Below, one piece after another: positions 6,034 to 55,200 of a stretch of DNA of 64,000 nucleotides. The notes beneath the pieces were generated by a model. It did no database searches. It was not told the origin of the DNA and saw only the letters and a list, made by a program, of their open reading frames with translations. Source of the DNA: Lineus longissimus (taxonomy: Eukaryota > Nemertea > Pilidiophora > Heteronemertea > Lineidae); NCBI RefSeq assembly GCF_910592395.1, contig NC_088318.1:2668001-2732000 (forward strand). Reading direction: 5' to 3'. Positions within the stretch are counted from its first letter, which is position 1. Each line of letters begins with the position of its first letter. The position numbers and the translations under genes were made by a program.

Positions 6034-25413
<19,380 letters not shown>

Positions 25414-28515: not shown

Positions 28516-31500
28516 CTAATGTCGTCTGTTTTTTTCTTCCTTGCGCTGCACCTTGATGGCCTCCGTCCAGACGGCCACAGCATGTTTGACCTTGACCTCT
28601 TTGGGGAAGACGCCGTTCGTCAATGCCAGAATCTCTGTGCCGTCTTTCGAGCTGATGTATACGGTCATCACATCGGCAAGGCTGAAAAGGAACACACGTA
28701 TCACTCAGTTACAATTTCACGATTACTCACCTTTGTCACCGTCCACGGCAAAACTAGTCACAGCCTAGGAGACAGCTGGTACCCCTTCTACAGCCTCATT
28801 TTGAGGATCATTGACAAAGAGGAATAGAGATTTCTTGAAGCACTGATAAAAAAGTTTTTGCTGAATAACCTTGTTGGTAAAATGAAGAATATCACCTTCT
28901 CGGGGATTCCCAACAGAAAAACCTACATCAGAGCCTGCACAATTGTCGATACTCACATGTACTCGGTATTGTCCTGGAAATCTTCATCATTGGGTGTTCG
29001 TTGGAGGTTGATGTTCAGTAGAATGCACTCGTAGAGTTCCGACACAAACCTGTCAATGTTCAGGTGCTGCAAGGCTTGTTCGATGGCGAAGGTGGCCTCG
29101 CCTTCTAATGGTTCATGATAATCCTCGGAGACGTCTTCAAATGCATCCTGGTTGAACGGAAATAAACAAGATTACGCGGTGCCCAGAAGCAAGGTGGAGA
29201 GCAGCTTCGAATGTTTAGTAAACCTACGAAACAACTAAATTTGGCCGAGAATTTAAGGCATATTCTGTTTGGATGAGTTTCAGGGTAGCCAGTCTCTGAA
29301 ACAATTTGAACTCTAGTTGCACTTCAGGATATCAGGGTCCAGATTGTTCAAGTTCGGATGCACAGATAGAGAAATGACTACAATTCTTCGGCATCCAAAG
29401 TCTTGAAACAGTTAATTTTGGACAAATGCTACTCTTTTTGCAGTAACAATCATCCAACCTAAGGAGCGTTTTGATGGACAGCATTCTAACAAATGGTGCC
29501 TTACCTGGTTGAAGTACTTGAGCTGTTTGGATCGCTCCATGGTGAGTAAGAGCCACAAGGACTGGACATGCATCAGTGAACAATGCTGCTGGATCTGTAA
29601 TGGAGGAGATTGGTAGAATATGACCGATTAATAAGGAAGGCTTCGGTTGGGTGTAGTAGTTAGACGAATCTGCTGGGGGTGAAGTCGCACCGTGCCAATT
29701 CAGCGCTCATTGACAAGGTCGGTTTTCAAACCCGAAAACAACAAAGGAGGCAAAATTACGATTGCGAAACCATAAGACTTGCAGCTTGTGCTATTGGATA
29801 GTGGTCAAGAGGTCCGCAGTTTGAGCCCCACAGTCGGTGTGAGGTGCTAGGCAGGTCCCTTTGTCTGATTTGCCTTTCCTGAATCACGTGTTTATGTAAA
29901 TAGGTACCAGTCAGAAATGCTCAGGTGCCAGTCCCGCTACTGATTTAACAGCTGCGGTCTGCTGAAAACTTTCAGGATATACCGAGGGAAAGTTTCAAGT
30001 CAGATCTTTTTTAACTTTAAACTTTATTTGAAGACTTCTGAAAACAAGAGCAAGAGGTTAAACAGACCTGCGGTGAGAGAATCTCCTTGTCCATTTCAAG
30101 CGTATTGTGCATGAACGTGACAAGCTTAGTTTCAGGTTCGAGCTTGATGTCGCGTAGCCAGGCGATCGTGATGTCCAGGCTGGCAATCGTTTCACAGAGA
30201 TCTTGGAAGACGCGGTTCTCTCGCAGAATCTCCGCCTTGACTGCATGACTCATTGGCTCCTGAAAATATTTGGAAAGATGTTATTGGGAAGGTGATTTGA
30301 TGGGTTGTTATGGAGAACATCATATTGAAAGGCTTTGAAATAGGCAAAAGGTTTAAACTGGCAAGAATGTGGAGAGCCTCAGCCTGCTGCAAACTGTCCA
30401 GATGCCTTTTGTTATACAGAACTTCAGATAGATATCAACCTTGACTATACTTCTGACAGGCAAAGCTTGACTAACCAACCACTGAGAATACAGAGACTTT
30501 ACACAAGGCCTCATGGCACATCCATCGAAAGGAAGTTCTGGAGATCAGAGCAGAGAGGAATTTTGGAGGTCTGGTTCATTAGCAGAGCCAGCCATGAATC
30601 CGAGACATCTCTTACCTGGCTTATGGTGTCTCTCAACGCACCAAATATGACCCTCGCGTTTCGATACTCGGTCTTGAACACCATGGGTGCCACATCGAAC
30701 ACAAGCTTGGGCTTGCCACGTAGCAGTCTCTCCTCCAGCTCGCGCTCCAGGCGAACGAAGTCGTAACTGATGACAGTGCCCTTGCCGACCTCGAGGGAGT
30801 AGTTACAGTGGGCGAGGACCATGGGGAGGAGGTCCTTCTCAGGGTCGTAGTAGATCAGGTGAGCGGCTGTAGCTTCTGTCACACCAAACTTGGGGAGCTC
30901 TCTGGAGCTGGAATGAGAAGATTGCATTGGTATAGATTCATTGCTTCTGATACACTCCCAATCAGTTTCAGCATGATGCTCTCGACATTTAAACTAAAGG
31001 ATCTCCAAGCAGAACTACATTTACTAACAAAAGAAAAGTCAAAAGAAAGGTTTCGGCCCCACCGATGATGCGGCAGGTTGGTTAGCTGCCAGTTGAATAT
31101 AGGGAACAGACTGCCTCCTCACCAGGGGCCTGGCATTATTGATCTGAGTTTGGAAGTAAAGAGTGCTTCATAAGCCTATTCTGTCTGGCCCATGACGTAC
31201 GGGCGACACCACAATAAACAAACTTCAACTTTACTTTGTCCATGTTTTAACCTACTCTTTGTTTCTGTGTCGACAATACGCCATGATGAAGTCGTTCTGT
31301 CTCCTGGTGAGGTACTCGACCAGCATCATGGAGCACAGACCCAGGCCCCTGGAGCTTGGAATCAGCATGGCGATGGGGGTGTTGGGGTTGACCGTCATGT
31401 TACACATCTCTTCAGGGAGGGTGTAGCCACTTGCACCTGAAAGAGAAGAAATGGTTAAACTTTTGAGTGATGAAAAGGGGTGTAATCTCTCGGGGGGGGG

Positions 31501-34269
31501 GCAATATCACACTTTTTGAAATTTTTAAGGCCAACATCATGGTCAAAAGCACGTTTTTGTTTGACTTCTGGGGGACCTTTTTTCCTCGAACAATGCCTCA
31601 AAATCTGAGGGTTTTCTCTGAACAGTTTTATGGTGTCTGTGATAGTGGTCCATTTGAGGGAATGGAATACTTGTAATCATTGGATTGGTCATTATCACAA
31701 ACTGACCATGTACCAGTAATCAGATATAACACTTACTGTAATTGACAAGCTTATCTTTGACATTCTTCCAAACACTGGTGAAGACTTCCAAGAGATGTAG
31801 CCATTCACCTCGCTGTTGTTCTGCAACGGATTGGAGTAACCTTGTTAAGAAATCTGTTTTGAAACACAACTGGCTGAGTCAGTGGACCCTCCCCACGAGG
31901 ACACCACTCTTAGCAGTACACCATCTTCTTAGGGACAGTGATTTTGGTCCGAAATGGATCCACTCTGTGTGATTTGACCTCAGCTCTGTTATCAGGACAC
32001 CTCTCTATTAAGGACAGCACTTGTCAGAAAATTGAAATATGTTTTCATTTTATCAAAGTTTCTCAAGTAGAAAAATATGACTTACGAGTGAGTGAGTGGA
32101 GCAGTTCCTTGATCGTTATGGTCCTGGCCTCAGCCTGGGTGATACGACGCTGGTAATGCTGGATTAACAGCTGCTGGAGCCGGATGATGTCAGGTAACCG
32201 TGACAACAGACGCAGGTGGGGTTCCTTGAAGAAAAAGATTTGCAAATAATCATTTTCATCCGAGTAAAGTTTAAACAATCCACTGAACAAAATCATTCGG
32301 CCGAAGAACTGATGGACAGAAACCTTACACCCAAAACCACACTTATAGATATCAGCATTGAGCAGGCCCAGCCTTCTCAGGTGTTGGTTGATGCAGAAAT
32401 GTCCAAGACTCAGTCAGAAAATGGCCACATCCGTTTCCCTCTCCAGCCAGCTGATATCGTCTGCCTTGGTTGTACCCATTATTACTTGCCACCACTGGGT
32501 GTTAGTTTTCCTCTTGAATCTTTCATTGAAACAGATAAGTTACTTTGACCTCTTGAGTCAAACTGCATGAATCTTTAGCCGATATTTACCTCACGAATGA
32601 ACAGCTTCAGGGTCTCAGCAGGGCATTTATCGCCCGCATGCTCATTCATCAGTTGTGTCAGGTGCTCCACCGTGACACGGCTGCGGAACTGCCACATCAG
32701 ATGACAGTCATGGATCTGGCTGATATCAACCTGGTCCCCGAGGCTGATTACCTCGTGTACGATCTTGATCAGCGGGTTGTTACCTGAAACGGGGTTGAAC
32801 GGCTCTCAATCAAAGTGTTACCTAGTTGTTGGAACATTTCTTCCGACAGTAAAGTTACAATGCAAAATCAGCCAAGTTAACACCTCCAGCCCTATGTAAC
32901 ACTGTGCTAATATGCACTCCCACCCAAAAATAAACACAGGGAAGAAAAGGGCTCTACAAAGTGGTTATTTTAATGCCTTACAACACCTCATCCATGCCGT
33001 ATAGTGTTCTTCTGAAGAAGAAATGCCTTCAAAGAATGACTAGGACTACTCACTCAAACGTTCGTCATTCACCAGCGCGGCGTTTGCTCTGTTCAGGATG
33101 GCATCTAAATCCTGAAAATGAAGGCATACTGAAAATTATAGGATCTTATACATATACACTTCATGTGACAAGTTTGGAATAAACTGCCACTGGTGGGCAC
33201 TTAGGGAATAGAAACGAGTTAAAGTTTTGGTTCAGAAAGGGCAGGGGGGCAGCAGTTGGCACAAAGAATCCCCCTCCCCCAACCTTGATGAAGAACTTGG
33301 TGAAATCTTTTACGAATAAAGTTTTAAGGAAAGACCTTGGGAACCATCTCTAAACTGGCCCAGAATTGGATGGCGGGCCCGAGTGGATGCCTTGCGTGCT
33401 GTTTTTCGGTACTGAGGAGGCCTTAGTAAGTAAGTTAGGACTGTCACTGATCTTCCACACCCCACGCATCTAGACTAGAGAGACCTCCTTCTGCCCTCGT
33501 ATCACGACTCACTTACATTTAGAAGTGGGTTGACATAGGCCTCGGTGAAAGCTTTCTCCCAGGCAGCACGTGCCTCTTTAGTGGTTAGATCAGCGTTGAC
33601 GTGCGCATCACCTACAAGAAGAAAACCAATTCAGAACAACTTCTGCGTAATTTTTGCAAACATGAACCCAAATGGAACTATAAAAGCCCCAATTTGCTTC
33701 CTTCAGCTCTCCCAGTGGTGCAGCATTGCTGTGGGAAACAAAACGGCCGACCTCTGGTGTGTCTTTGATATTTTCGATATTACGGCAGTCATGATGTCAA
33801 CATAAACGGCACTGACCTCACTCCCTGGCGAAGTTTGGCCACTTCACCGCAACTCTGGTCAGTATGGAAATGAGAGAATTGAAAGCTGCCAATGACAGCA
33901 CAGAATTTTTAGGTCTGGTGGAGTGAAATTCGGTTGTAACCTTAACCTCAGCCTCAACCCTGATCATCTCAAATGGTGTTATTTTACCAGATTTCTTATC
34001 AGGGGATATTCCATAAACCTTGTTGAAGTTATCTCTCCAACCCAGGACTTAACCCTAGATGCAAGAGGTGTCAATTAAAAACTCCTCCAACACTAACTGT
34101 TCTTATTCTCCATGAATGTTTCAATCAGGATGGTCACGAGCGTCAGACAGTCGTCGGGGGACTTGTTGATGGCTCGGCCAAGGACTTGGATGTCGTGGCG
34201 GATGTGATCAAGGAGGAATCTTCGCACCTGGTCAGCTGGGATCGGTGGCTGGATGAGTGCAGTGACACC
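28516..34269 (-). CDS. RNF213: RNF213 C-terminal domain, exons 57-68
   Basis: Exons 34098-34269, 33517-33611, 33054-33111, 32590-32783, 32086-32224, 31737-31820, 31256-31436, 30616-30901, 30068-30259, 29505-29594, 28957-29147 and 28516-28681. Recognisable stretches include DLTTKEARAAWEKAFTEAYV, PDIIRLQQLLIQHYQRRI, PNTPIAMLIPSSRGLGLCSM, LIYYDPEKDLLPMVLAHCNY and ISYDFVRLERELEERLL, all typical of the conserved RNF213 C-terminal fold. Exon 63 ends at a GTAGGT donor overlapping a TAG. The final exon ends KVQRKEEKNRRH and TAG. Confidence 0.93.
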
Positions 34270-37200
34270 CTGTAGTGAAGATGCAATCGAAAATTTGGTG
34301 CCGAGAGCAACAACTTCAACATCTTGTCAATTATCCTGTTTGTTGTGTGTAATACTGACACAATCGTAAGCGAATTAAAAAACTGGAAAATTTGGTGCCG
34401 ATGGAAATAAATCTGGCAAAATATTTGCCATTTATTAAGTGTTCCTAACACAATCTGGCAATTCTACCATCTGGTCATTCTTATGCTAGTATTTGATTTG
34501 ACAAGGGGATGGGGCATCGGGAGCAAGCCCCCTCCCCCAATATTTGGGAAAGTATTCTGAATTTAACCAGGAATTTTGGTAAATGCACCATAAATACCCT
34601 CTGGGTACCTGCTTTTCTCAACGGTGCTCTCCCTTTTCTGATTCCTTGATTCACCCAATTCCACCCAGGTTCAAAGCATCACGTAGTTCATAAAACGAAA
34701 TAAACACCAAGTATCTATAAAATATAGTCCAAACATCTCACCGGCAGGTCACTCTTGGTCCCAATGTGCATGGAGAGATGCAACAGCAGACGGACGATAG
34801 TCGTGGCAGCTGGAGACATGCTTCTCTCCGGGATGGGGGTGAGGTTCGTCATATCAGCGACGTTAAGGACATAACCCTTCTGGGTGTTGTCCCTGAAATA
34901 TTCAAAGCGTCAGTTTGAGATGGAGGTTTGCAAAGTCATATCATTACGTATCAATTTGAGTTTATTGTGGATAATTGCAAACCAAATATGTCATTGAAGT
35001 ACCATATTATGCATCCACTTAGCATTTGAAAATGATCTACTTTCTAGTATGTCTTCCTTGATTCGAGGTCGGACTTCTCAGAAATGGTCCAGATTCTCCA
35101 AAGTAAAAGTGAGAACCAACGCAAATCCTCTGAAAAGTTTGAGGCTGTGACTTCAAATGACATATTATCACCGACGTGCATATTATTGCAATTGACGTCA
35201 CTCCCAATGAATATTTTGGGTGATAATATTTCATCATTACTCATTCTGGTTGATACTATACCTATGATCAATTTTGGCGTTGCCTTCCTTCAGCTGGTAA
35301 CCAATGCCACCGATATCCGAACCACACCAACATTTTGCTCGTTCAACTGGGCGACCACACTATGAAAAAGATGGAAGCAAACTAGGTAAGAAGCAGACTT
35401 GTCTAATAGCTTACCTATGATCCAGTTTGACATTGCCGGCTGACAGATGGTGTCCTTGACCTCCAATATCTGACCCACACCAGCATCGACCGGTATAATA
35501 CGGACGACCACACTGTCAAAAAAATCAAAGAAAAGACATTTTCATCCCAAGCACCATCTTTATCTGAATATTTTTCATGCAAATTCGCGCATAACTTTAC
35601 AAGCTTGAGGGTTTTTTGGCAGAGAAAAGCTTTTTTTGAGCAGACGTTTATAACTAACATGTTGTAATTCGCAACGACACTGAACAACAATAAATTTTTT
35701 GGTAAAAGGGTTAATATTGTAAAGCCAGAAATATCTGTGGCAACTTTGATGGCACAGTAGTGCAAAATGTGTACTCCACAGTTTCAACAGAAAGGCTTCT
35801 GGTTTTCAGCTCTCAAATAGTTATAAACCACTTGAGACAGAACACTTGTACAGTACTAAGTACTGTATAAGAACATACATTTCATTTCATTTACTGCTGC
35901 GACAAAAAATTCTGCTGACCTTAAATTTAGCATACAGTAGCTTCTATGCATATTACTTACATTTCCGATGACGTACGGGTGACCTCGACTACAGGAGTAG
36001 AAGACAGGATTTTCATCGCCAGCACCTCTCCTGGCCGCAAGCAGAGCCGCACGAGTTTCCTCCAGATGATCATGAGGCATCACCGGCAGAAACGCATCTT
36101 TCATCCTCCCGGCCTGGGAGGCCATGACCTTGAAGGGCTTGAGGAGGGGTGTCTCCTTCAAGGACTGCATGACCAGTGTCGTCTGCACCAAGAGATCCCA
36201 CACATCCTTTGTCATTTTGTCGGCTTCCACTGGTTCAGGGCCTATTTTGTTTGATTTGACCTTTTCGAGGGTATCAACCACTGCTTGCTGGAAAGTGAGA
36301 GGGAAAAATCACGAAATGGTACCCAAGACTCGAAATTACCTATCCTTTTTCTGACTTTTAAAGATGAAAACCAACTGATTTTTACTTCCTTTTTTGGGGG
36401 AAGTTTATAGAAAAGCATGCTGATTTAAGACATATCAACACAAATTAAGACTAAGAAGGTGTCTGATGACATGACGACTTTGATGGATTGAGGCTGGGCA
36501 TTTTCCCGATGTTGGAAGAAGACGTACCTTGTTGTTCATGAATGCCTGGTTCATACACACATTCTGTATGTTGTCGATGGTCTGAGACAAAGAAAAGGAG
36601 AAATGATAACTCAAACATCATCCTTTATTGATGCAAACATTAAGAAATTGCCCAATATCATGCGAGATATATTCACCAAATGATCTGCTAAACTTCTAGA
36701 GCCATTCATATTCAAACCTTTAAAGTTACAATACATAACCAATCTTTTGTAGGAACCTGATACCAGGCTTGGTAACATCGAATAACATTAACATTAGTTC
36801 GAGCAAAACCTCACCCATCTTGTCAGCAAAACCTCACCCATCTTGTCAGCAAAACCTCACCCATCTTGTCAGCAAAACCTCACCCATCTTGTCAGCAAAA
36901 CCTCACCCATCTTGTCAGCAAAACCTCACCCATCTTGTCAGCAAAACCTCACCCATCTTGTCAGCAAAACCTCACCCATCTTGTCAGCAAAACCTCACCC
37001 ATCTTGTCAGCAAAACCTCACCCATCTTGTCAGCAAAACCTCACCCATCTTGTCAGCAAAACCTCACCCATCTTGTCAGCAAAACCTCACCCATCTTGTC
37101 AGCAAAACCTCACCCATCTTGTCAGCAAAACCTCACCCATCTTGCCAGCAAAACCTCACCCATCTTGTCAGCAAAACCTCACCCATCTTGTCAGCAAAAC

Positions 37201-40200
37201 CTCACCCATCTTGTCAGCAAAACCTCACCCATCTTGTCAGCAAAACCTCACCCACCTGAAAAAACCCTGTAAAAGACATACCTGATCTGTAACCCTTTGG
37301 GCAACATTCGGTTCAAACAAGTTGCGCGTGTAGACCTCACGATGCAGGGCCAACAGACAGGAGACCTCCTTAACCTGCTTGTTGCCATTCAATCCCTGTA
37401 ACAACCGAAATTCAAGAAACAATGCAAAAGAAGAAGTAGAGGTTTAGCTTTAACAACTAACCACATTTACTCAAAAGTAGGTAATAATAATATCAATATC
37501 AATAATGATATTGAGTTCCTATACAGTGCTTCTCCATGTTTCCCTGTTCAAAGCGCTTTTGGGATATCATATTATTACCCTGGTCTCCACAGAAATCAAT
37601 CAGGGGTTTCAAGGAGCAACCAGAAGGTGCTCACTTGAAGTCGACCAGTAGGGGAACCAAGCAGTGACTCGGCTGGGAGTCGAACCAAGGGTAATTTTCA
37701 CTTCTGACGTTTCTGCAAGAGACCTTCTTAAAGTATTCTAATGAGAAGAAGAACAACGTACTTGACATTTCCCCCTAAAATCCTCGACTGAGCCCCCTAA
37801 AATGACAGCAGCCACCTCGTCGCGTACGGTCTTGTACTGTGCACCAAAGAGGATGAACCTATCAACCCCGTTATCCTCTCTGCCCCGAGCTTCATCGGGC
37901 ATCACCCAGGCCAGATGGCGGCGCTGCGAGATGGTGTCCAAGCTCTCCATCCCATAATTTCTGCAGAGCTGCTTCACGAGAAACAACCTCGGCCACTTTG
38001 AATTGCTCGATTCCGAGAGTCGCTGGGCCACATCCCACAGTCGTCTGGCAGCGTGCATGTCATGATTCTCCTCTTTCAATATATGAATCCTGTTCATCAT
38101 TTCGGCAGCCACGCTCATTCCGAATCTGGTCTTGGCGATTGCTTCGACCTTTCTAATGTCGAGGGCATTGGTGCCAATGTCTTTTTCAGCCGCGTGCATG
38201 CATCTTGTGGCAAACTCGACCCTGGTCTTCAAGGCATTCCCAGGCTGCAAGCCACAGTGGCTGTGATAAGAATCCTGAAATCAGGCAAAAATGTAAATAT
38301 AATGAAGTTTGCACTTTCCCAAGACAAGGTGAAGAATGAAAATTGAAGCCTTATGCGCCCTCTGGCCTCTAGGCACGAAGAGGACTAAGTAAGTAAGTAT
38401 TCTCCTGTTGACGAAGTTCTACTTGGAAATTAACGAAAAAGGGAAGAAGAATGACTACCCTACTGGGAAATGTACAGAGCTTCTCCGGTCTAAGAGGAGG
38501 AATACACTAAATAAGTAACCAAGTAAGTAACACGACCTTCAACAACCGAGCAATGAATACAAATTTCACCGAGATTATGATAAACAGACTCACCTCGAAG
38601 CAGCGAGCACAGAGGAGAGACAACTCGACGATATGTCCCGGTTCTTTCAGTAGACGCTGAGAACGCTCAAAGAAGTACTGGAGGTGATCACAGACGTCAT
38701 CCGAGCTGTATCGGAGTAACAGCTGTAACAGGAGCGATCGTAGCACAGGGGATGCGTCAATGCACTCGTCGTAAACAGTCAACTCCTTAGTACGTGAACG
38801 CATCCCGACACGTTTGTCCCCACGGGGCTCGTGGATGACGTACGACATGAGGATTTCGATGACTTCCTGGGTTGGCGGTTTGTCTTCGGCAAAACACAGC
38901 TGGGAGACGAGGTCCATGAAGAACTCGTTGCAGGCGCAGATATATCTGTTGTAGGATTCGTCACCCTTCCTGAAAAGTTTGAGAGAAACACTGCAAAGGT
39001 AAATTTGGGAAGCCAAACATTGCTGTGTTTAGCGTCTGCTGAGTTCCATAGCACATCTGCAAGGTTTTATGATTGAGTACTTGGAGGGCAAAATAACGCC
39101 AGTGAGACCAGTATGATAGAGCTCGGCTTTTTAACTTTGAGGGCAGGGAACCAAGGAGAGCGGCCTAAACCCTGAAAGCATTCCGGCCGAAAATCACCAA
39201 GCTAGTGGTATTATCAATAAGCACAAGACGAAAAGTAGAAACGCTCAATGGAAGTCAATCTTGTTACAAAACCGGGCAAACATAAGATTAACCTAGGTGT
39301 CAACCTACCTATTTGCTCCTCTCTCAGGAGCTGTGAAGTCTTCAGGTATAACTGCCTTACATTTGAGGCATTCTCTATTGTCAACTTCCATTTGGTCCCG
39401 GAAACATGTTCGACAGATGTCGTGTTTGCAGGGGAGTACCATAGGGTCCTTCATCGGCTCCTCACAAGCGATACATTTCGAGTTGCTCCTGGAGGAAAAA
39501 GGACGGAAGGAATATGAGGCAACTAACGACAAAATGAATGCTAGTTAAAGGGCAAATATTCCATAAAACGAGCACAAGACATTTCGTTTAAGAGACATAC
39601 TTGTAGATTTTCTTGACTGTGTTGAACTTGCACGATCTCAAGAACTCGGCTACCTTCGTCAGTGACTTTGGCGTACGGAAGTTCACCTCTTTTCCGAGGA
39701 ACTGAAATATTGAAATATAAACTAGTCACCAGAAAGTCAAATTAGAATGCTGTGAAATGGAGACCGTGAAATAATCATCAAATTTCAAATACAGATAAAC
39801 TTCATGCATCTACACAATGATATTTCAAATTCCGGACCAGACCTGTGCATGAGTGGAAATAATCGCTTGTAGTGTGTTTTCCCTTTAAACACTGTCGCTG
39901 CAAAAGTGGCACAGATACATTTCCAAACTGCAAATGTTAAGGTGAATGAAGCTTACCATCCAGAGTGGCCTGATGGAATCGACACGCCCCGCCTCTTCCT
40001 TGATGTGGGGAGGACAGACGTGGTCTATGAACAGCTGAACCACGCAAATACGCATCCATAAAGGCCTACAGAGGAAAAGACAAAATTCCGATCATCAATT
40101 TCACAATGGTAAATAAGGTAAATAAGTCCAAAGCGTCACGATGCAAGCCTCCTGAAACAAAATACTGGTCCAATGATATCATGACGCAACTTTGGTCACA

Positions 40201-43200
40201 CTCTCTAGTTTGAGATCAAATCTATGAACTATCTAGTTCAGAAGGCCTACCTGTACTTTTGCATGTACTGCTGGCTGATTGGACCAATTGTATATTTAGA
40301 ATGCAGGATTCTGTCAATCACAGGTTTGAATTTCTTGACGGTTTCGCTCCATTCTTGGCGGCCTTTGAGCGAGTTGAGTTTCTCATCCAACGAACTGATG
40401 TAGTCGACCATCTTTACAAGAATGTTCACATCAAGTGTCTGAAAAGAGGCAGATCATTGATCAGTGGAGCACAGGAAACTCATTCAATGCCAAGGGGCTG
40501 GAGGTTCTTGTGACTATTGGACCAATAATCTGTTGGACCAATAATCCAAACATTGTAATTTCAACAATGGACACATCACATTGCTTGTGGCCTTGGACAA
40601 CTCCCTTATTGGCCTTGTTGTGTCCTTTGAATGAGACATAAACCCAGGTGTTTGATCCTTGGCAAGCAAAAGACTCCTTCTGAGTAGCTTGGGACGTAAT
40701 TCTTCTGGGTCAAAGATGTAGTCATTAGGATCGTTTACAAAGGACCAAAACAAACCAGACCAGATCATATCGCCAACCGCGTCATGATTGACGTAGGTCT
40801 TGTAACGACGTAAGTATGTACACTCATGGTCAAAAGTTTATGGACACCAGTTTTTGCAGATTTTCTCAAAAACGGCTTATCCTATTGAACCCAAATTTTC
40901 ACCAATGGTGGAGAATCTTCTTGGCTATCGAATGACGTGATAGTTGATATCAGGACCAATTGCATAACAAAGTTATTACATAATTCGATAGCCAAGAAGA
41001 TTCTCCACCATTGGTGAAAATTTGGGTAAAAAAGGATTAGCCGTTTTTGAGAAAATGTGCAAAATCTGGTGTCCATAAACTTTTGACCATGATTGTACAT
41101 CCAACCAGACCAGATCACATTCGTGCGTGCCTACATCAGTCTAGACCAACCCAGATCATCTAGATGGGTTTGGTTCATCCAAACGGCCCTATTGGGACAT
41201 TACACCTTACATCATAATGCAGCTAATAGCTACATGTATTACTCAGATTGACACACGGGATCGACAGAAACCTACCATCTCGGTTCGGGTTGTATTCAGT
41301 TCATGACCCGGCTCCTTCTTCAGCCAAGCAACACATTCCTTCCAGACGACGCACGCCTGAATGAAGTGCTCGAAGCGCTCATGGAACTTCATGAATGTCA
41401 GATGAAGCTTTGGAATCGTCAGCTGTCCATAGAGGTCGTTACCTTCTGTGTCAATGTCGCGGCGAGTCTCGCGGAAGGCGGCCTTCAACGTTTTTGTTAG
41501 GATCTGAAGATTTCATCAAATGAATCAAATATCAATTCAATAATGTTTAGGTGTTTTAGCAGACGGTACGTGACAGTGGTGAAAATGATAAACAAAAATA
41601 GCCTTATACTACCACCAGAAATGTGTACATGTATTGTGGTTTCATTTCGGCTATGATAAAAAAACTCCCTCAACTATTTTCGGTGAGCCAGCTAGGAAAT
41701 TAGTCGATAATCGACATTGTGTTCAGAACTGTGACCCCCTTTGGGCCAACCTACCTCCTGCATCCCCTCCTGGCCACAACGCACACTCATGTGGATGAAG
41801 TCGGATATGTAGAGATCCACCATCTCATCATACACTGTCTCTGGTTTATCATTCAAGAAGTCCTTGAAGAACATTCCGATAGCACTGTCGCTGAACAACC
41901 TCTGACAGGTCTTTTCAAGGCCTTCCTCTGAAAAAGTCCACAATATATCAGGAGTTAGATGGCCTGTGCTTCTTAAGGAATTGTCCATTACTTTACAATA
42001 TCATTCTAATGTCACACAGTGTGGAACTTGCCTTAGCGGACACCTCTCTACTAAGGACACCCTCTCTATTAAGAAAACCATAGTTGGTCCCTACTTGGGT
42101 ATTTCTATAGAATTCGACATCTGTCATTAGGACACCTCTCAATCAAGGACAGCATTTGTCAATCCCAAGAGTGTCCTTAGTAGAGAGGTTCTACTAAACT
42201 TAGCTGAGATATTGCGTTATGTTCTCCACATGTGTGTATGAGTATGGGCTATCTATATTCACATAAATGACATTCGTCCCCTGCAAAATCATAGGAATGA
42301 AACACACCCAGTACGCTCCAAGAATGATGCCCCAACAATTGGAATATCTACCTTTCATCGTCTTTGCAGTCTGGATGATTATTTCCATCTGCGCATAGAC
42401 CTCCCACGAAAACGGAAACTGTGGCTGGAATGGCTGACGTCCGGCGGCCGTCTGCTGTGCGATCATCTCCGTCAGTTCTGCACGTGACTTCGGCGACAGG
42501 AGCAACTTTTCGTATGACAGTGGCGTCACATGAACATCTGTGAGCATCTTTAGCCACAGGGTGCAGATCCACTTATCGCGTGCGGTCCTCTGTCGCTGCA
42601 GGATATCCAGGTTACTGTTGGTGTCGAGGTACGCTATAAGACCAGCCAGAGTTGGCATGATTTTCCCTTCAATTATCATATGTATGGCTCGGCTGAAAAA
42701 TAAGGTCAAGAAGTTGTCCCGTGCTAACTAAGAAATGAAATTGACAAGCCACAGGCCACAGTCAGAGCCATCAGAAGGTCCTGATCTTGATTCCCATCAA
42801 GACCAGATTCGAATTCACCTATATTTAAGAAATCTTCTACAGTAATATTATATCAACACTGGCATCCAAGTACCAGTCAAGAAGGGGGGGTTGATGCAAT
42901 GGGAAATGTATTCCAAATATTTGGAATGTTAAACATGTATTCCCAATTTTCAGCATACATTTGAAAACTGCTTGCGTTAGAATAAGGTCTCAAATCTTCA
43001 TTATTTACCTGAATGTTCCCGCTCTGTTGATATTCTCGGGGGCAGCGGCGTCCTTACTCAGCCAATCTTGGGCCAAGCTTTGGGTCATGACAGCATTCTC
43101 CTTCTCTGTGAGCAGCTGAGCGATACGGATCCTCAGAGCACCCATCAATGTGACACCTAGGTGAGAGACAGATACTGTCATATGCCAAATTTTCCGAGTC

Positions 43201-46200
43201 GGGGGCGTTTTATTCTTATGGATTTTGCGAATAACCAAGATTTGTAAAAAAATATTCTTCACACACAGACACAGTCAGGCAATTGACTCTTATAGTTGAC
43301 ACTTTGCATTTTTTTCTAGGGCCACAATTCAACACTTATTCCCCTGGCCTTGAATTCAACCGTCAGGAATTCACCACATTTTCTTGTGGGTTACAGGGTT
43401 TAAATTGACCTCTGCCCCATATCGGTAAAAATGCTCACCATGTTGTCTTGACAGTTCCTTTGACAGGATCTGCAGACGTCTTGTCGGCCTGTCTGCCGCG
43501 ACGGTGTCTGGATCTTTTATCATCGCAGCTGACCCTTGTAGACAGGCGTGTATTAAACCGTCGACATCGAGAACTTCTTGGGTCCTGTCAAAGACCCGAG
43601 TTGGTGGTGGGCCTGGACACTGAAACATAAGGACAGAATGCATATCATTACACACAAGAGCTGGTTGTAATCAGATAATGCACGTATACCTACACTTTCC
43701 ATCTTGCAAGTGCAAGGCCGACTGTGGTTTTGAAGATGGCATTTTTGACTTGTTCTGAAAACAAGTTGGTACATCAAACGATTTGGTTTTAGCAAAGATG
43801 GTCCAACGAATGCAAACGCCAACTGAGGAGGACCTTGTTTTAATGTCTCAAGCTGTGAAATAATCTTACCTAAAATCTGTATGCAGTTGGAAACTCGGGA
43901 GGACATTGGGCCAATGAACCAAGCTGGCACGACACCACCACAAACTATGAATATCGCAGAGAAATCAAGCTTACCGGTACGGACATGCCTCCATCCTCCT
44001 CTGGCGTGCCAGCACAGCCTTCAACCACCTGTGCTCTCCCAATCGACATCTCCATAACCCGTCTCAACTCATCTGCGGACGGCTCGCGAGGTAGTTTATC
44101 AAGACCCAGGAGTTTGATCTGCTCCATGTCAAGGGAGGTTTCTGACACCTCCATTGGCATTGGGGTGCTGGTGCCAGGCGGCAGAGAGGACTGTAACAAA
44201 TACAAACCAATCAATAGATGCAACTTTTGTTACCAGCTCCTTTCTGTATAAGTCCACTGAAGAGAATCAATCCCGCTTCTTTTATCAGACGACTGATGGA
44301 TTGCCACAGACAGCAATGTTTAGGTTAAGTATTATTCAGGTATGGGGTTCTTAATCTGAACTTTACCTCAGTTTCCATCTCAGTCTCCTGGCGTTCACCC
44401 ATCTCTTGTCTGGGCATGGCAAGTCTCTCCACCGCATCGTGGATCAGACTGCTGATCGATTGTTGTTTCATGTTGATGACAGACGGCTGGGTCCCCGCTG
44501 GGGGTCGGAGGTCATCCAAGTGCACCGAGTGCCACTTTCCACCCTACAATGCAGAATGTAAACTATAAACCGTGACATGTTTGAGGAGCTAAAATTTGGC
44601 CATTTTCATTTGGCAGTGAACTACAGCCTGGTCTACACTAACCGTGACATGTTTGAGGAGCTAAAATTTGGCCATTTTCATTTGGCAGTGAACTACAGCC
44701 TGGTCTACATTAGCCAACTTCTCTTAACATCGGTTTGCTTCTGCTTGGGTCAGACGTCCATCATATGAATAAATGATGGGCTCCAGGTGGAAACAACCAT
44801 GTGTCGCACTTAAAAACTGACAATAATTTCGGACTTGAAACACCTCTTTTAGATAGTGGTTTTCTAGTAGGATTGTTCTCACCTGGAATCCGACAAACGA
44901 GCCAGCTACGACTCTCGGCATTTGAACGATAAAGACGAAATGGGCGCGTCCCTGCATGGTCGGCTTGACCTCGTTGTACTCCTCCATGATCTGGTAACGC
45001 GCACACGCGATCAGATTACTGTTCTGGTCACCAGAGTCGCACTGAAGCAACATCACACGCTCGTCATTTTCTTGCTTGAAGAACTCCCTAGAATGACACC
45101 ACAGACTTTGTCAACTACATGCATCATAAAATAACACACTATACAGATGACTATTTGTTCAAAAGTTTTAAAACAGAACTTGAATTTGAAAGCTTCCAAT
45201 TGTGTAAATATGTACTCATAACACCTAAAAAGGGTCGACAATAGTTACCTTAATTCCCTTGAGAACTGTTGCTTGGTGTCCATGGCCTGTAGGGCAAGCA
45301 GACGGCAGTGGGGGATCTTCAAGAATGCGCCCAAAGCTTTGGCATCCTTCTTGGCCAGAAGATGGGATCGCGATGTCACCTGTAATCAAAGATGTTTTAA
45401 AAATCACTAAAACATGATTCTTCAACCAACAGTTAACTAAATCCAAATAGGTTTGGCTTGGTTTAATCTCGTCCAAAGTTTCCATAACCACAAGCAAAGT
45501 TCAAAAATCAATGTTATTCAAATGATAAAGTCATTTCCTGATGAAGTGTGAAGCTGGGAGCTACAATCTACTCACTGTCAGTTCACATATGTAAGACCAA
45601 AAGCCCACGGCTTCTTTTAGTCCACACAAACGTTAGACCAAATGCCTATGACTAGTTTGTTCGGAGGTGCCACTGGTGGGTGTTTGGAAGAATCGGACCA
45701 TTCACATTCTGTTGAGTTAGTCCAGTTTTATCCAGCACTTGCACACACGTACAACAGAAAAGATCCCGGCCGGCTGGAGCTCACCCTCGACTCAAGTCAA
45801 TAACCGTACCATGTCACAGGTAGTGTAAACCAATTTCACTCACCTCCAAGAAAACATCCTCCTCCGCTTTATATTCCTTCAGGAGATACCTGACATGATC
45901 CTGGAGGCTCCGGTGCTTGTTGTCCTTGAAGTACTTCTCAACCAGTTCCGTCTCTTCTGCTATAAGGCTGGTGTTCTTGAGCCTCAAGACGGAGTCCGGG
46001 GTGGCACACGCCAGGAGGATGTCCTTACACCTGGTGTAAACCTGTGAAAAAAACTTGGCGGGTCAGCATACCAATATCGACAGTTACTTTCCCTGAATGG
46101 GCCAATTTTTTATATCAGTTTTTAAAACACTTCGTAAAGATTTCCTGTTGAACATTGCCAGGTTTTTCCAAACTTTCCAAGGATTTCTCCGGCTGTTTCA

Positions 46201-49200
46201 ATCAAAGCACACAGAGAACCCACAACTGTCCAGTAACTTGGGCCTTGAGGATCCGAGCCAAACAGACGTCACTTCAGCTTGATTGACGTCGCTAGACGTC
46301 AGGACGTCACAGACTAGCTAAGGCCATGACGATTCGATGACTAAGTTAAGACGTAAAAAATTTCATTCAAAGTCTACGCACTTTTCTTGCCCATCCAGGG
46401 GTATCAGAAGGAGTTCCCAGGGCTTTGGTGATCTGCAGGACGATTGACGCGGCTGTGTCGGCATGGAAGCCACAGAATACATCACCGGGATTCAGCTGCT
46501 TTTGAACCCTGGAACCAAAACAATTTTAGTCATGAATAAACTTGTTAACAAGAGAACTCAAATATTTGACAAGTGCTGTCAGTAAAAATAAACATTGGCG
46601 CTTCACGAATATTGTAACTGAAGATAACTGAGATAAATATTGAAAGCTGACAGTACCCTGGACCTCAATACAATTTTGTGTTATTGCAAACCACAATAAT
46701 ACTATTGAAGCTCATGTAATAAGATATTTCTATAAGGTTCTCTGCGTTTTCTCGAGTCTTTTCACATGTACCTATATGTACTTTTAAAAGCCCCCCCCCA
46801 CTCCCTGGTGATAAAATGATCAACTTGCTCTCACCTTGAACCAAACATCACTGGCTGTGACCTTGTAACAAAGTCTATCGCCCACTTCTCGACTTTTTTA
46901 GCAACTCTGATCTGTGATTGGTCGAGAACAGTCGTCATGGTGAGGAAGTGTTTCTCGAGACGGTTGATGAGGGGAATTGGGAACTTCTCATAGACAACAT
47001 CCTTCTCTGCAACGACAATGAGCCTGAATCGTTCATCCACCCGACACTTGACGCGATGGGTTCCAAGTCCCAGATCCACATATCGTTGCCCACCCATGTA
47101 GACGTAATATTGGTTGAGAGCATCATAGAGCGACTCGTACAGCGACTCCAGATTCAGCAGCACAACGGTCTTTCCCGTGTCCATGCATTTCTTGATGCGG
47201 TTGATGTTACGACACACCTGAAGAGAAACAATAGCCGGGTCAAACATCTTAATTCGTTAAAAGTCTTATAACATTTATGTTCATTTTGGAATTGTGACGT
47301 GAAAAAAGGCAACAGAGCATAACCCTTGACAACCACACATGTCAAGACCGGTTCATCCTCACCACCACGGGTGACGTCACAAGGGACATCTGACGCCACA
47401 CCAATAGGGTGGGGACGTCAAGACGTCAGGACACACCAACGATACTTTTTCTGATCTGACACAACCTCAGTCACAACGGTCTTACCCGTTGAACAAGCAG
47501 CATCAAAAACCCGTTCTCATATCAACAGAGCACAACATGTCATCAACATTCAGTCATGCATTTTAATACCACATCATCGTTTCGAATTGCCGCCACAATT
47601 TCACTGGAAATAACGTCATGAGGTAGGTAGCAGAATCAGACTTATCTCTTTCTGTGCGTCTCGGGAGATTTCCCAGCCGCACGGAATTGTTATGGGTTTT
47701 TTTCAGTCTGGCCACGACAGTTGAAAAATGGATCCAACCACTCACCTGAGTGTATTCTTGATCGCTACGGAAACTGCTGCCGAAGATGACGATGGTGTCC
47801 TGCATCTCCAGAAGATGTTGCTGGAGGATTCCTAACGCTGCGTAGTTTTCAGTCAGGATGAGCAGGTAGCGACTCTCTCTGAAATACAAAGAAAACTTTC
47901 ATTATTCGTATGCCCAGTACTTATTACAATCGGACACTTTCAAACATTTTCTCTGCTACAGACACATCAAATTCTTCCTTCTCTTCATTATTTTGAACAG
48001 AAGTACAGTGGAACCTCCCTTAGCGGACACCTCTCTATTAAGGACAACCTCTCTATTAGGGACACTAGTTTTGGTCCCAAATTGTTTGTTTCCATTCAAT
48101 TCGACCTCTCTAAACAAAACACCTCTCTATTAAGGACAGCATTTGTCAGTTCCACGACAGTCCTTAATGGAGAGGTTGAATTGTACTTAAGATCGAGTAA
48201 ACCAACCAGATTCATCTTTTTTCTTATTGGAATAAGTCAAGAACAGCACAAAAAACCAAGGGAAATATTCCTCAGAACTTGATACTCATTGGTTGAAACC
48301 CTTACCTGTACACTTCGTTTCCAAGAAGACATGCCTCAATCAATCCAGTCGGGTCGCACCTTGGGTCGCCACGACCACGCTGGAACAAGAACATATTCTA
48401 CAGAGACTGTGCACATGACATCATCAGAGAAAAACTGCCCAGCTTGACGTCAAATGATGTCACTGACCAATGTGGAACTCAATATCATTGTAATATGTTA
48501 ACACCTTCACGGTGGGTGTTTCACCCCCCAACACCCCTCTTCAAATCCCCAGAGAAAAAAAAGTATTAGAGATTGCTGCATAAGTTCTTTTGAAACAGCT
48601 CCTCCAAGAAAAGGTCTTCTTGAATCAATAGAGATATGTTGGCTTCAATGGCAATACAATGTTGTATTCAACTATTCAATTTGTTTTACCTGTTATAGGG
48701 CATGATAGCACAATGATAAAATTTGGCTGTTAAAATATCGCACAGTGTATCGACACAGAGATCACCATAATCGTAGAATGTTTCAGAAACTTGATCACTC
48801 ACCCTCTCATGATGTCCCAGCATGTTGCAATGCTCCGTGAACACTTGCACGGGGTCCGTCTTCTCCAATCCACCGAAATTACGCAGAACAGCATGCTCGA
48901 GTTCGTACCATGTGGGTGGTCGGCGGGAATGGTTAGCGAAGGCATACACCATCTTGACGAGACTGTAGAAATCTCGAAGTCCGAAGAATTCCCTGATTTC
49001 TAACGCAGAGTTGTAAAGCTGGAGATAGGCTTTGGCCATGTTGGGGATGATGGCCTTGATGTGGGTGAGGACCCTCACATCGGTGGAGCATATACCCCTG
49101 GAAGTAAACAATTTATAACATAATCATCTGTGATTAACAGGTCCAGTTTACCATGACCTGGTAAATGGTGAGATCAAGACTTGTCAACCCGATTGAGTAA

Positions 49201-52200
49201 TTTTAAAGATATAAATCCTGCTGACCAGGGGACCAATGACGCCCAATAAAAAGGCTTCGTGGTATTGTTACATTATAAGGTGCAAAACATCAACTAAACC
49301 TACTCAGCACTCTTTCTGAGTTCCTCTTCGTCTGGTACGCCACGCTGGACCAGAATGCCCCGGTTCATCTTGGCCGGATCTAGGGCCCAGTTGGAGATGC
49401 CGATGAAGGCGACCTTCATGTGGGGCAGAGGCTCATCATCACTGCCGCATGTCCCATCCTCAAGCAGGGGGTGCAGAGTCTGCAAACATCAAAAGGAGAT
49501 AGGTGAATCAATCGCTCAATCAGATTCAACTGGTCAAATGCGCAGGTTGCCCCAGCAGTAGCAGTGCTCCGGGACACGATGATGATGATGACATGATGAT
49601 TCAAAACTGCCCACTCACCTTCAGAGGCATCCTTGGAGAGTCTTCAGCAAGACCAACCTCGTCCAACACCACGACTGAGACGAACTGATCGAGGTTCTTG
49701 TCCTTTTGGAACCGGGCACACTGCCTGAACGTACCCTTGATACCGTCAGGGGTCGCCAGGGGAGAGCATTGGAACGACACCATGTGGACCTGAAATGGAA
49801 TTTGAAAGAGTTTGCCGAGAAAATATATTAAAGCTAAGATTGCCAAAACTGTCATGCTATGCTATTGGTGCAAATCAAAAGGCCAAAGAGAGCACATAGA
49901 CAGACGTACATCTCCATCTTAGTTGTCAGCTTCTGAAGGTTTTTATTTTAACTTTCTGCACTATTAATCGGAGGCTTCTTTCTACTGTTGTCACACACCA
50001 CATCTGCAGATCAGGAACAAGAGAATTTGACCAAGTTTGTCTGAAAATTGGCTAATCAGTGACGAAACAAACTCTACCTGTTTCAATGCTTTGAATAAAG
50101 GTGTCCTCGCAGTCTCTCCCTGCATTGCATCAGTCACAATGAGTTTTGCCAGCGATTTGGATGAGCCAGGCTTGCCGACCAAGAAGAGCGGTATGCGTAG
50201 CTCGATACAGACGACCATCATGAAGAGGTTCTCTTTCAGTGCCTGGTTGGGGGCGATGTTTGGCTCCGAGATTTTCACTTGCTCCAGGAACACATCTTGA
50301 CATCTGTAGAACGAAATGAAGCCAATTCAATAAAACTGTACAACCCTCTCATTCCAAACAATGACAACATCAAGTAAGGCTATATCAATGTAATTGTTCG
50401 TTTAAGGGACTTACAGACTTTTTACATGACCTACCTTGTGATTTCATTCCGCAGTGTTTCCGATCCATTAGGTAACACACACGGCTGCTTGAAAAACTTA
50501 GCAATGTGATCTCTGTACTCGACCCTAGTCTTTTCCTGTAAGCACGCGTGGTAGCAGACGCCAAGAGCAAGGATCAATGACCGCGTCACGTCATCACGAT
50601 GTTCTTCATCTTCTTCCGTCTGATGAAAAATAAATTCTTGAGATGAGCCGAGGCCGGAAAGTATTGAAGAGAGGTGTAACTTTTTTTTGGTTGTTTATCA
50701 TATTTAAGTGTTTCCTCACAATATACACCTAGAGAGACCATGACTTCAAACAGAGAGAACATGTCAATCTATCTTTCAGCTTTCCCTAACAATGGCTGAT
50801 ATTTATAAGACTAGTAAATGCTTTTACTTTAAACTTCATGTACATTTACACTAGCCATCTCTGAAGAAAACTGTAGTAAAAGCATTTACTAGTCTTTATA
50901 AATATTAGCCAATGAGGGCAAACACTCAAAAATGTTACACCAGCAGCTCTATAACCATGTTCGGTGATCTGTAATGTAATGTAGGAAGGGACTGGAGAAC
51001 TCAGAGGAGACCAAACTGTCGGGGAGAGCAGGCACTTCAAACTTGGCTTCAGCGAAGTGAACTGAGGAATTTCTCAATGAGTTTCTTGTTGCGAAATAGT
51101 CCCTCTTTCTTCTGCTTGGGGATAATAAACTCGCGGCAATTGGATTGAATAAACCGTCTGACCAAGTTCATTACCTCTTCTTCTTCTTCATCTTTGTCTT
51201 CCGTATTCCCCGCCTCATCTTCATCCATCAGCTTGTAGAGGCGTCTGCGCTGGCTGTAGAACCATGACATCACATCCATCGACCGCTCGACATCTCGCAG
51301 ACTCACAAAGCTACACTCATTCTGAAGAGGGGAAAACAATAAACAGTTGAAATTCTAGATTCTAGATCACTTTTCAGCGTATCAGCAAACCTGTCAGAAG
51401 CGCAGCCAACATCATAACCCTAGCTAAGTGAATGCTACAAAAATCACATAAGAGCTTTTCTTTTTTAAAGGAGAAGCTCATGTAACGAGTCAGGTACGTC
51501 AAGGCAACCTCAATGGGGAATCATAGATAGGAATCTTGTGTGACCATGAATTTATATCAGACCAAGGGAATAATAGTATAACTTGGAGAGGGAGTCCAGA
51601 TAGCGATACAACCATATATACGCAATGAAAGTTGCTAACATCTTCATGATGTAGACGTTTATTTACACTATATACATATTCCACGATCGATTTCGGTTCG
51701 CTCGAACCCTCATCAGGCGGTATACAAGACTGAATGGATTGCATAATGTATAATAGTATGTATGTCACCAGTCTATGGTTCTCATTCAGTCTTGTATACC
51801 GCCTGATGAGGGTTCGAGCGAACCGAAATCGATCGTGGAATATGTATATAGTGTAAATAAACGTCTACATCATGAAGATAAGCAACTTTCATTGCGTAGC
51901 CAACATCATAATCCTAGTTAAGTGAATGCTACAAAAATCACATAAGAGCTTTTCTTTTTTAAAGGAGAAGCTCATGTAACGAGTCAGGTACGTCAAGGCA
52001 ACCTCAATGGGGAATCATAGATAGGGATCTTGTGTGACCATGAATTTATATCAGACCAAGGGAAGTTGTACATTAATCAACCGCCTACCTTCTGTTGTCT
52101 CATGAAGTCCTGTGAGGCAGCCAAAATGTCTGTGATGATCGCATTCAGTCCGGGGTAATTTGGTAGCTGGCCATGCTGCAAAAGGAATAACAAATTCAAC

Positions 52201-55200
52201 GCCAAAATATCGGTTTCTACAACATTTGCCAGAGTCACAGGCATTTACGCATGCTATGAAAGCCAGCAATACTTGCTACCAGCCTTATGGTGTCATGATG
52301 CAATTATGGTTCATGCATGATGCAAAATATGATGGCATGTAACATCACTGCCTTGAAAGAGGCCACAGAAAGCAGTACAGATGCTGTGGGATGTCTTGAA
52401 GTAAATCACTTGTACACAGTAACCCTCTCATCAAACTTCGTCAATTCAACATACTAATGGTACTCTAGGGTACCTTCAAGGTGCTTAAAGAAGACTTGTG
52501 GTCCATCTCAAGTTTCCATTTCAAGCAACCGAACTACAAGAAATTGAATCCAATATATGCCCTACACTTACCTCGATGTATCTCTGTACAATCTGTCTAA
52601 TGTACATCTTCTCCACCTCATCACTGAGCTGTCCAAAGTCCCAGACCAGAGGCAGCATGCTCTGCGGCAGAGGTTGCACCCGGTACACCAGCTGCCTCAT
52701 GGGAACGCGGCCGAGTTTGTCAGCCGTCTTGTCGGCTTTGACGTTGTAACCGAGACCTGCTTGTTCAAGGTTGTGAATCATCTCTTGTGAATGCCTAGAA
52801 AAAGTACATCGAAACATAGTCAGGCAAATGTTATCTGATATGTTTGAGTTCGTGAAGGAATTCAATTAATGGGAAATTGACAACCAATCAGTGGCAAAGA
52901 CCACCAGTAGGAGCTCACCTTGTCAGCATAAGACATCAATTTTGAAACTCTAAGCAGCAGCTGTGTCTCCTTTTAATTCCACCATAGCTAAATTTCCAAA
53001 TATGTGCATCTCAAAATGAACACAAGAGATAACTTAGATATTTGGTTGGAGATGCATCCCATAATAAAAAGAGCTCTCTCCCAAAAACAACAAAACTACT
53101 TACTTTCTGTAAGGATTGCAGGCAGCGACGAATTTAAGACCTGCGTTGGTGTTGATGCGCTCACCATTCATGCTCTGGTCGCACATGATCTCTTTGATCA
53201 GACCGATCGCCTCAGTCGTGTTCGCCTCATCAAAGAACAAGATGGTGTCCATTCTGGGGAACATTGCTCGATTATTGGCCGAGAGCGTCTGCGCTTCTTT
53301 AACCTTTGCGATGATTTCTGCATGTGATGTACCACCATGAACCTGAAGAAAAACAGATTGACCTTGAACTTCACAACAGCGACCTAATATGCTGTTGACC
53401 GACCTTCACTTCCACAACCGGAAACAGATAAGCTGTTGACTGACCTTGACCTTCAAACCAGGAAACAGATAAGCCATTGAATGACCTTGACCTTCACTCC
53501 AGGAAACAGATAAGCTGACCTTGACCTTCACACCAGGAGACAGATAAGCTCTTGAATGACCTTGACCTATAAAGATCCAATCTTGTACCTAACTGTGGTA
53601 GGTTGCACACACATGCTACAGAGAGTACTTGTTCCACAAATACTAAATTTTTCTTAAATAAGTTAAATACTTGCCTTCATGAGCACCATATTCTTGACTT
53701 CTACCCCCGGCTGGGTCTGAAGGTCGCACATGAACTTGATGAGTCTCGTTTTACCACATCCCGTCTCGCCCATCACGACCACTGGGATGCTGCAGCGGAA
53801 CCTCATGAAGATTGCCAGCATCTTTTTTACATTGTCCGTCGTCAGTTCGTACGTTTCGTCTGGGTCGTGGACCATCTCATTTCCCATCACTGTGCACAGC
53901 TTGGTGATCTTGTCAGCCCTGAAATATGAACAACATCACATTGACATCTGACTAAGACATTTTTTTTGCTATTTAACCCAAACAAGGGACATCACCAATC
54001 TACATGTAACATCAATTAGATCAATTTTTAGGATAAAGAAAAGTGACTGAACATCTATCTCAACGATTTCATCAAAATCAAAACCCTGGACACAAAATCA
54101 AAGTTACATCCAATCAAACAATTGAAAATCTAAGTCCCACCTGGTTTCTAGCTGACAAAACAAGAAAGGAGCTAAACTGACCTTGTTAGGTTATCAAAGT
54201 TCTCCAAGAGGTTCACACCCTGTCTGTTGAGTGCCTCAAACAGTTGTTTTGACATGATTTTCTCCTTCAGAACGGCTTTCGTCTGGTGGTCGATCAAGTT
54301 ACCCGTCTCCTTGTCAATGTTGAAGCCAAGGAATGTAATGGAGTGATGGTCAGGATTGAAGAAAATATATGGATGGGGGCTGAAATTGAAAATAGTGGAG
54401 TAATAAGTTACGAGAAGATGTCGGCCCATGGGTTCCCCAGGAGCAGACGTCACCTCATCAAATGGCCTGGAGCAGAAGCCACCGTATTGAAAGTCCTGGA
54501 GAAGACGACACCTTATTCAACAACCTGGAGGAGATGAAACATAGCTCAAAGGCCTGGAGCAGACATCACCTAAATTGAAGGCCTGGAGCAGACATCACCC
54601 CCAATTGAAGGCCTGGAGCACACATCACCTAAATTGAGGCCTGGAGCACACATCACCTAAATTGAGGCCTGGAGCAGACATCACCTAAATTGAAGGCCTG
54701 GAGCACACATCACCTAAATTGAAGGCCTGGAGCACACATCACCTAATTCAACATCCTGGAGATAGTGTCACTTAATTCAACAGCCTGGAGCAGACGTCGC
54801 CTATTTCAACAGCCAGCAGGAGCAGACGTCACTTAATTCAACAGCCTGGAGCAGACGTCACCTATTTCAACAGCATGGAGTAACATCAACAGACACCAGC
54901 TCATGCAAAAGCCCTGAGCAGACGACACTTGACGTACCTTGTTTCCCACGTCCTGCGAAGAGCAATGGGCAGTTCATCCTCCTCCTCTTCCTCCATAGCC
55001 TCATCGGTCATGTCCTGCTGTAACTGGGGCGTTTCTTCCGACATCTTCAACGACCGAGTGGCAAAATCCTTCGACATCTGAATCATGAAGTTGACAACGA
55101 ACGCTGTGAATCCTGGGAGATCGTCTTTCAGTATGTTTGAGCAGAAGATGGAATGTTCGCAGTCGTGGAGTTGGATGTTCAGGAACGAGATGAAGTGACG

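Follow-up and report, generated by a model that had tools for sequence, protein, structure and literature searches.

The ligase RNF213 acts broadly against microbes, and its gene is associated with moyamoya disease. In the bootlace worm Lineus longissimus, for which a published assembly of 391 Mb is described, the copy of this gene examined here carries two similar 98-nt exons in immediate succession, at the place where the second half of the RZ finger is encoded. Are these exons, here called A and B, alternatives of which each message takes one? And if so, what would the exchange change in the protein?

The window, which denotes the whole stretch of 64,000 nucleotides analysed here, corresponds to C11:2668001-2732000 of the genome. 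Its minus strand harbors a large RNF213 (rnf213-alpha-like) gene, recognized by protein search and by mapping of the NCBI model P0001 ('rnf213-alpha-like isoform X2 [Lineus longissimus]', 6038 residues). All 65 junctions among the 66 segments of P0001 resolve to the model protein, with AG acceptors and GT donors apart from a single GC. This GC-AG donor (AAG/GCAAGT) belongs to the intron at 53343-53674. To judge from their names, P0001 and a second model, P0002, are RefSeq predictions; P0001 is called isoform X2 and P0002 isoform X1, which implies further models for each of the two genes concerned. C11 comprises 19,188,348 bases here and 19,191,461 in the NCBI contig behind both models while C8 is the same in both, so the assemblies differ slightly. 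On the opposite strand to RNF213, an open frame at 22285-22668 (+) resembles a CLC-type chloride channel by eye. Furthermore, a 23-nt unit is repeated 19.7 times with 99% match at 36802-37254, within an RNF213 intron, and similar repeats match in a second copy of the gene. The features around the exon pair are collected in Table 1.

Table 1. Position of the RNF213 gene in the window and of the exons and introns surrounding the A/B pair (exon numbers as in the initial annotation).
Feature	Position	Strand	Length	Remarks
RNF213 gene body in window	28519..63951	(-)		P0001 residues 1729-6038, 66 exon segments
Exon 54	35961..36287	(-)		Encodes first half of RZ finger, including the first two Zn ligands (CSRG cysteine, GHP histidine)
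Intron 54-A	35513..35960	(-)	448 nt	
Exon A	35415..35512	(-)	98 nt	CGRPYYTGRCWCGSDIGGQGHHLSAGNVKLDH + AG; used by model P0001
Intron A-B	35360..35414	(-)	55 nt	GTAAGC...TCATAG
Exon B	35262..35359	(-)	98 nt	CGRPVERAKCWCGSDIGGIGYQLKEGNAKIDH + AG; weak donor (TAG/GTATAG)
Intron B-56	34893..35261	(-)	369 nt	
Exon 56	34742..34892	(-)	151 nt	Phase-2 junction to A or B

Exon 54 ends in phase 0 (...FYSCSRGHPYVIGN/), and both A and B run from phase 0 to phase 2, each terminating in a split AG codon (...GACAG/A/GTAAGC and ...CATAG/B/GTATAG). The initial annotation had described two open 98-nt segments with AG and GT boundaries, common phases and 20 of 32 identical residues; all these facts hold on recheck. 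At the nucleotide level, 64 of 98 positions are identical, with 24, 24 and 14 identities out of 32 at the first, second and third codon positions, plus the last two bases. When neutral divergence was simulated at the identity of the coding nucleotides (62/96), 20 residues were kept in 0 of 3000 runs starting from A and in 0 of 3000 starting from B, the maximum being 19 in both cases. The NG86 estimates, which concern 32 codons only, are a dN of 0.31 and a dS of 1.83. This resemblance between A and B fits selection for similarity of the protein.

Tandem duplicates are scarce elsewhere in the gene. In an ungapped scan of the 66 exons against their own neighbouring introns (at most 100 residues each), exon B was the best duplicate, reaching 0.66 of the self score. 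The only other clear duplicate scores 0.34; it copies the exon at 55435-55570 and lies at ~55686-55782 (-), within the intron that immediately precedes this exon. This copy retains 75% nucleotide identity over 97 nt and has decayed, as it meets a stop in the acceptor's phase; exon B, in contrast, is open and undecayed. When both peptides were scanned against all six frames of the window without gaps, no third copy of the A/B exon rose above threshold.

How do the two exons combine with their neighbours? Exon 54 followed by A, 56 and 57 gives an open frame, and so does exon 54 followed by B, 56 and 57. Inclusion of both produces a stop within the would-be exon B, and omission of both a stop within exon 56; constitutive use of A and B together was rejected, as such a message stops early. 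The joint skip of exons 55 and 56 (249 nt) remains in frame. In Mya arenaria, P0044 is annotated without 55/56, the residues VIGN being followed by sequence which aligns with exon 57. Introns of the modelled gene within the window, 65 in all, measure 112-837 nt, so that the intron between A and B has half the minimum length. It contains two matches to yTnAy, one with its branch A at nucleotide 28 from the donor and the other 3 nt from the acceptor, and the former appears to be the only usable candidate branch site. In a human survey, steric interference was considered possible when donor and branch point were separated by less than 50 nt (PMC5740500). As for docking and selector RNA pairing, the inverted repeats reported in the region comprise only one of 16 nt and one of 13 nt. 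Splice sites were scored in a leave-one-out manner against the other junctions of the same gene. The donor of A exceeds 38 of 64 modelled sites and its acceptor 11 of 64, whereas the donor of B exceeds 1 of 65 and its acceptor 3 of 65; these low scores make B the weaker choice.

The functional weight of the pair depends on which residues it encodes. Both spliced forms match the Pfam family ZnF_RZ-type (PF20173; A 58.3 and B 60.6 bits, cut-off 27). Residues were assigned through the HMMER match to mouse RNF213 (7oik) from 4404, counted on the printed 6tax row for the same 138-residue stretch. The active site of the RZ finger was mapped only recently, in 2025 (PMC12075652): mouse Cys4462 is reported as the nucleophile and Cys4451, His4455, Cys4471 and Cys4474 as metal ligands, and His4483 is presented as the likely general base, with H4483A lowering autoubiquitination. 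The corresponding human residues C4516 and H4537 are predicted to play the same roles, and C4516S is reported to abolish ubiquitylation of S. Typhimurium, L. monocytogenes and T. gondii vacuoles (PMC11549300). In Lineus, the CSRGH of exon 54 provides the positions of Cys4451 and His4455. The first residue of A as well as of B (C of CGRP) corresponds to Cys4462, and the C-W-C pair of both exons to Cys4471 and Cys4474. Thus the four zinc-ligand residues C, H, C and C are present in both forms. The ligand pair of A and B reads C-x-C, one residue shorter than the mouse C-x2-C; a finger of this kind would presumably still bind zinc.

The two exons part at the position of His4483. Exon A keeps the histidine (GGQGH, QGHH) and exon B has a tyrosine instead (GGIGY, IGYQ), so that the full Cys/His dyad is absent from B. 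The tyrosine is found in B of both gene copies (as GGIGY in the window gene and GGIDY in the second). The exon contains both positions of the dyad, and the exchanged segment is therefore the catalytic half of the finger. The initial annotation had spoken of half of the RZ finger, which was right but understated, 'catalytic half' being the more apt term; its proposal that the exchange alters substrate recognition is too narrow for an exon which carries both dyad positions and lacks the histidine in B. Catalysis by form B is likely altered or reduced. However, C4462S is reported to retain autoubiquitination activity in vitro (PMC12075652), hence the activity of altered sites cannot be read from sequence alone. 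A tyrosine at the His4483 site is also seen in an RNF213-like protein of the lizard Hemicordylus capensis (P0043, GGENYRAV), so it occurs beyond lophotrochozoans.

The same exon pair recurs in a second RNF213 gene at C11:2.617 Mb, which is oriented opposite to the window gene. Genome matches at C11:2617519-2617616 and 2617672-2617769 correspond to exon A with 98/98 identity and to exon B with 87%, and the length of the 55-nt intron between them is kept. The presence of the pair, with a diverged B, in this inverted gene makes an assembly artefact unlikely. The model P0002 uses the B-like half (CGHPVKQGKCQCGSDIGGIDYQLREGN), and its slot equals the second locus letter for letter. P0002 was considered as an isoform of the window gene and rejected, as it shares 87.3% identity over 5038 residues, differs throughout and matches the other locus exactly in the slot. 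Both gene copies were compared over 5445 nt, taken 3' from the start of exon A. Substitutions amount to 100/3669 in introns (2.7%; the 55-nt intron with 4/55 is included) and to 37/1558 in the other ten exons. Exon A shows 0/98 and exon B 13/98 (Fisher p 5e-6 against introns). Nine of the 32 residues of B differ, leaving the nucleophile, the Cys pair, the GG and the tyrosine unaffected. Between the copies B has a dN of 0.145 and a dS of 0.164, both of them raised. We make no claim of positive selection on B; escape from gene conversion fits equally. Exon 62 (31737-31820), which differs at 9/84 sites between the copies, is a second hotspot behind exon B.

Approximately 10 nt upstream of its exon A, the second gene contains an insertion of 2458 nt (L005 2052-4509), with a reverse-transcriptase-like open frame on the minus strand of the insertion by eye. 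The acceptor of A scores 3.9 in this gene against 6.4 in the window gene, and the insertion may be the reason why P0002 uses B. A further, more distant RNF213-like gene lies on C8; its slot holds just one exon, with the same start and phase, and no second copy was found in the 3.1-kb locus or, by motif scan, in the 200 kb around it. When the B peptide was searched against the whole genome (E up to 10), five places were among the best candidates scored, namely the two C11 pairs and the C8 exon. For the related protein P0003, its own exact exon was not located. The C8 gene (L010, C8:11642515-11642610) and P0003 are both without histidine at the His4483 site (GGTANVS and GGRENVS).

We interpret A and B as probable mutually exclusive exons of Lineus longissimus RNF213, which would give one zinc finger with two alternative active-site halves; our estimate for this reading is roughly two in three. 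Exon 54 would be spliced to A or to B and then to exon 56, with both exons being used in vivo from the window gene. Joining of A to B would be blocked by steric exclusion, since donor and branch point would lie too close together in the 55-nt intron; messages with both exons or neither would be frame-shifted to an early stop. Isoform A would possess the full Cys/His catalytic dyad. Isoform B would keep the ubiquitin-accepting cysteine and the zinc-ligand cysteines, with a tyrosine for the general-base histidine and a different loop behind the cysteine, and its E3 activity would be weakened or redirected: it may load ubiquitin and discharge it slowly or to other acceptors. Exclusion is made likely by the frame incompatibility, the short intron and the models with A (window gene) and B (second gene), so the alternative-splicing swap proposed in the initial annotation finds partial support. 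Several observations count against a mutually exclusive pair: for the window gene, the one model observed contains A, whereas the model with B belongs to the second gene; B has weak splice sites; and the slot of the C8 gene is occupied by just one exon.

In a different and considerably less probable arrangement, the inverted gene copies have divided the pair and no switching occurs within either gene. The window gene would then use A only, and the second gene B only, since the retroelement-like insertion would have removed the branch site and most of the polypyrimidine tract of its A. The assignment of A to P0001 and B to P0002 is what such a division predicts, and the insertion with the reduced acceptor score in one gene and the poor splice sites of B in the other agree with it. 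However, B of the window gene is intact, with a divergence from A that fits constraint at the protein level, A of the second gene is identical to its counterpart and undecayed, and the names X2 and X1 imply additional models of each gene.

The weak donor and acceptor could also mean that B of the window gene is a dead duplicate heading to decay, and the degraded exon copy at ~55686-55782 indicates that duplicates do decay in this gene. Against this, B keeps an open frame, the RZ cysteines and both splice dinucleotides, none of the 3000 neutral simulations reaches its residue identity, an NCBI model of the other gene includes its B-like exon, and B is free of the stop which the degraded copy hits in the acceptor's phase; we regard a dead exon as quite improbable. 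Still harder to credit is a poison switch, whereby a frame-shifted message with A and B or with neither would lower the RNF213 level and the protein encoded by B would not be the point. Double inclusion and double skipping indeed both stop early, but a single poison exon would suffice without preservation of B's protein sequence, and the short intron makes joining of A to B unlikely.

Does a comparable exchange exist in other animals? Relatives were gathered in two protein searches (14 and 41 proteins at the thresholds, P0001-P0045 together), in which clustering at 90% hides isoforms of one gene. At the slot, 36 bivalve rows fall into 14 with Y/F and H, 12 with A/V and Y, and 10 others with H (five of them A/V with H). 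The combination of Y/F with Y is found in 0 of these 36 rows (Fisher p 0.0007, a guide only since the rows are related). This count left out P0024, P0044 and the tunicate P0045, where the pattern missed. The contrast between slot and flanks is strong in two bivalve pairs, with flanks 97-99% identical and slots of 53% (Mercenaria P0004/P0005) and 73% (Mya P0012/P0023). Between Lineus P0001 and P0002, the flanks are 97-98% and the slot 55% identical. The contrast is smaller in six other A-to-B or mixed pairs (slots of 53, 50, 70, 58, 82 and 55%, with flanks of 64-93%) and absent from two A-to-A pairs (slots of 91 and 97%, with flanks of 81-92%). In Lineus the slot ranks among the most dissimilar windows of 33 residues, with 6/1270 at its identity or below, but this does not hold for every pair: the corresponding figures are 98/1268 for P0004/P0005 and 588/1529 for P0012/P0023, where one protein is partial. 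The bivalve pattern looks like alternative exon choice; alternatively, it could reflect paralogous genes with converted flanks.

A deep homology of A and B between nemerteans and bivalves is not supported outside the two diagnostic sites. For the class-sorting test, P0024 was added (37 bivalve rows: 15, 12 and 10) and Hydra was dropped. Outside the diagnostic sites, A leans to the B-like class (-4.5, permutation p 0.15) and B to none (-0.6, p 0.44); only B of the second gene leans to its own class (p 0.02). With one sequence per species, the values for A, B and B of the second gene are 0.0, -2.0 and -9.2 (p 0.51, 0.34 and 0.02). In addition, both Lineus exons share residues atypical of bivalves (CWCGSD and the DH end), so that A and B may have arisen independently or exchanged sequence by conversion. 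We therefore view as doubtful the broader proposal of an ancient switch between His and Tyr exons at the RNF213 active site, common to nemerteans and bivalves, according to which lophotrochozoans would splice in a Cys/His or a Cys/Tyr RZ half to obtain active and altered forms of this antimicrobial, coat-forming ligase. The altered form would load ubiquitin but release it slowly, or act on different targets, and the Tyr half would diversify from one gene copy to another. The single C8 exon and the failed class sorting count against common descent of the pair.

On the preferred reading of A and B as mutually exclusive exons, the interesting part is that exon choice would exchange the catalytic half of an E3 ligase, one form being devoid of the general-base histidine. 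If real, the swap replaces this half while ~6000 other residues stay the same, and offers a ready-made test of the role of the histidine; it would also mean that the animal can tune RNF213 ligase chemistry by splicing. Among the titles and abstract openings listed from the open-licence literature, no report of an RNF213 exon pair of this kind was found.

The pair can be related to several known systems. Exclusive exons enforced by steric hindrance or by frame, as described in a human survey (PMC5740500) and for OGDH (PMC7969005) and U2AF1 (PMC5224494), share the tandem similar exons, the frame-breaking double inclusion and the distance of less than 50 nt from donor to branch site. In contrast to the exons of these reports, the Lineus swap would concern an E3 ligase active site. 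The second C11 gene shares an identical A and the length of the short intron, and is distinguished by its altered B, the insertion beside the acceptor of A and the use of B by its model. Bivalve RNF213 proteins likewise display His-type and Tyr-type halves (Y...H versus A/V...Y), with near-identical flanks and divergence concentrated in the same slot; they were compared as proteins, and the Lineus exons do not sort with their classes outside the two sites. Finally, the RZ finger of vertebrate RNF213 belongs to the same family and has the nucleophilic cysteine and the first zinc ligands in common with both Lineus forms and the histidine with exon A, whereas Lineus has two tandem coding copies of the catalytic half, with a C-x-C ligand pair and a tyrosine in B.
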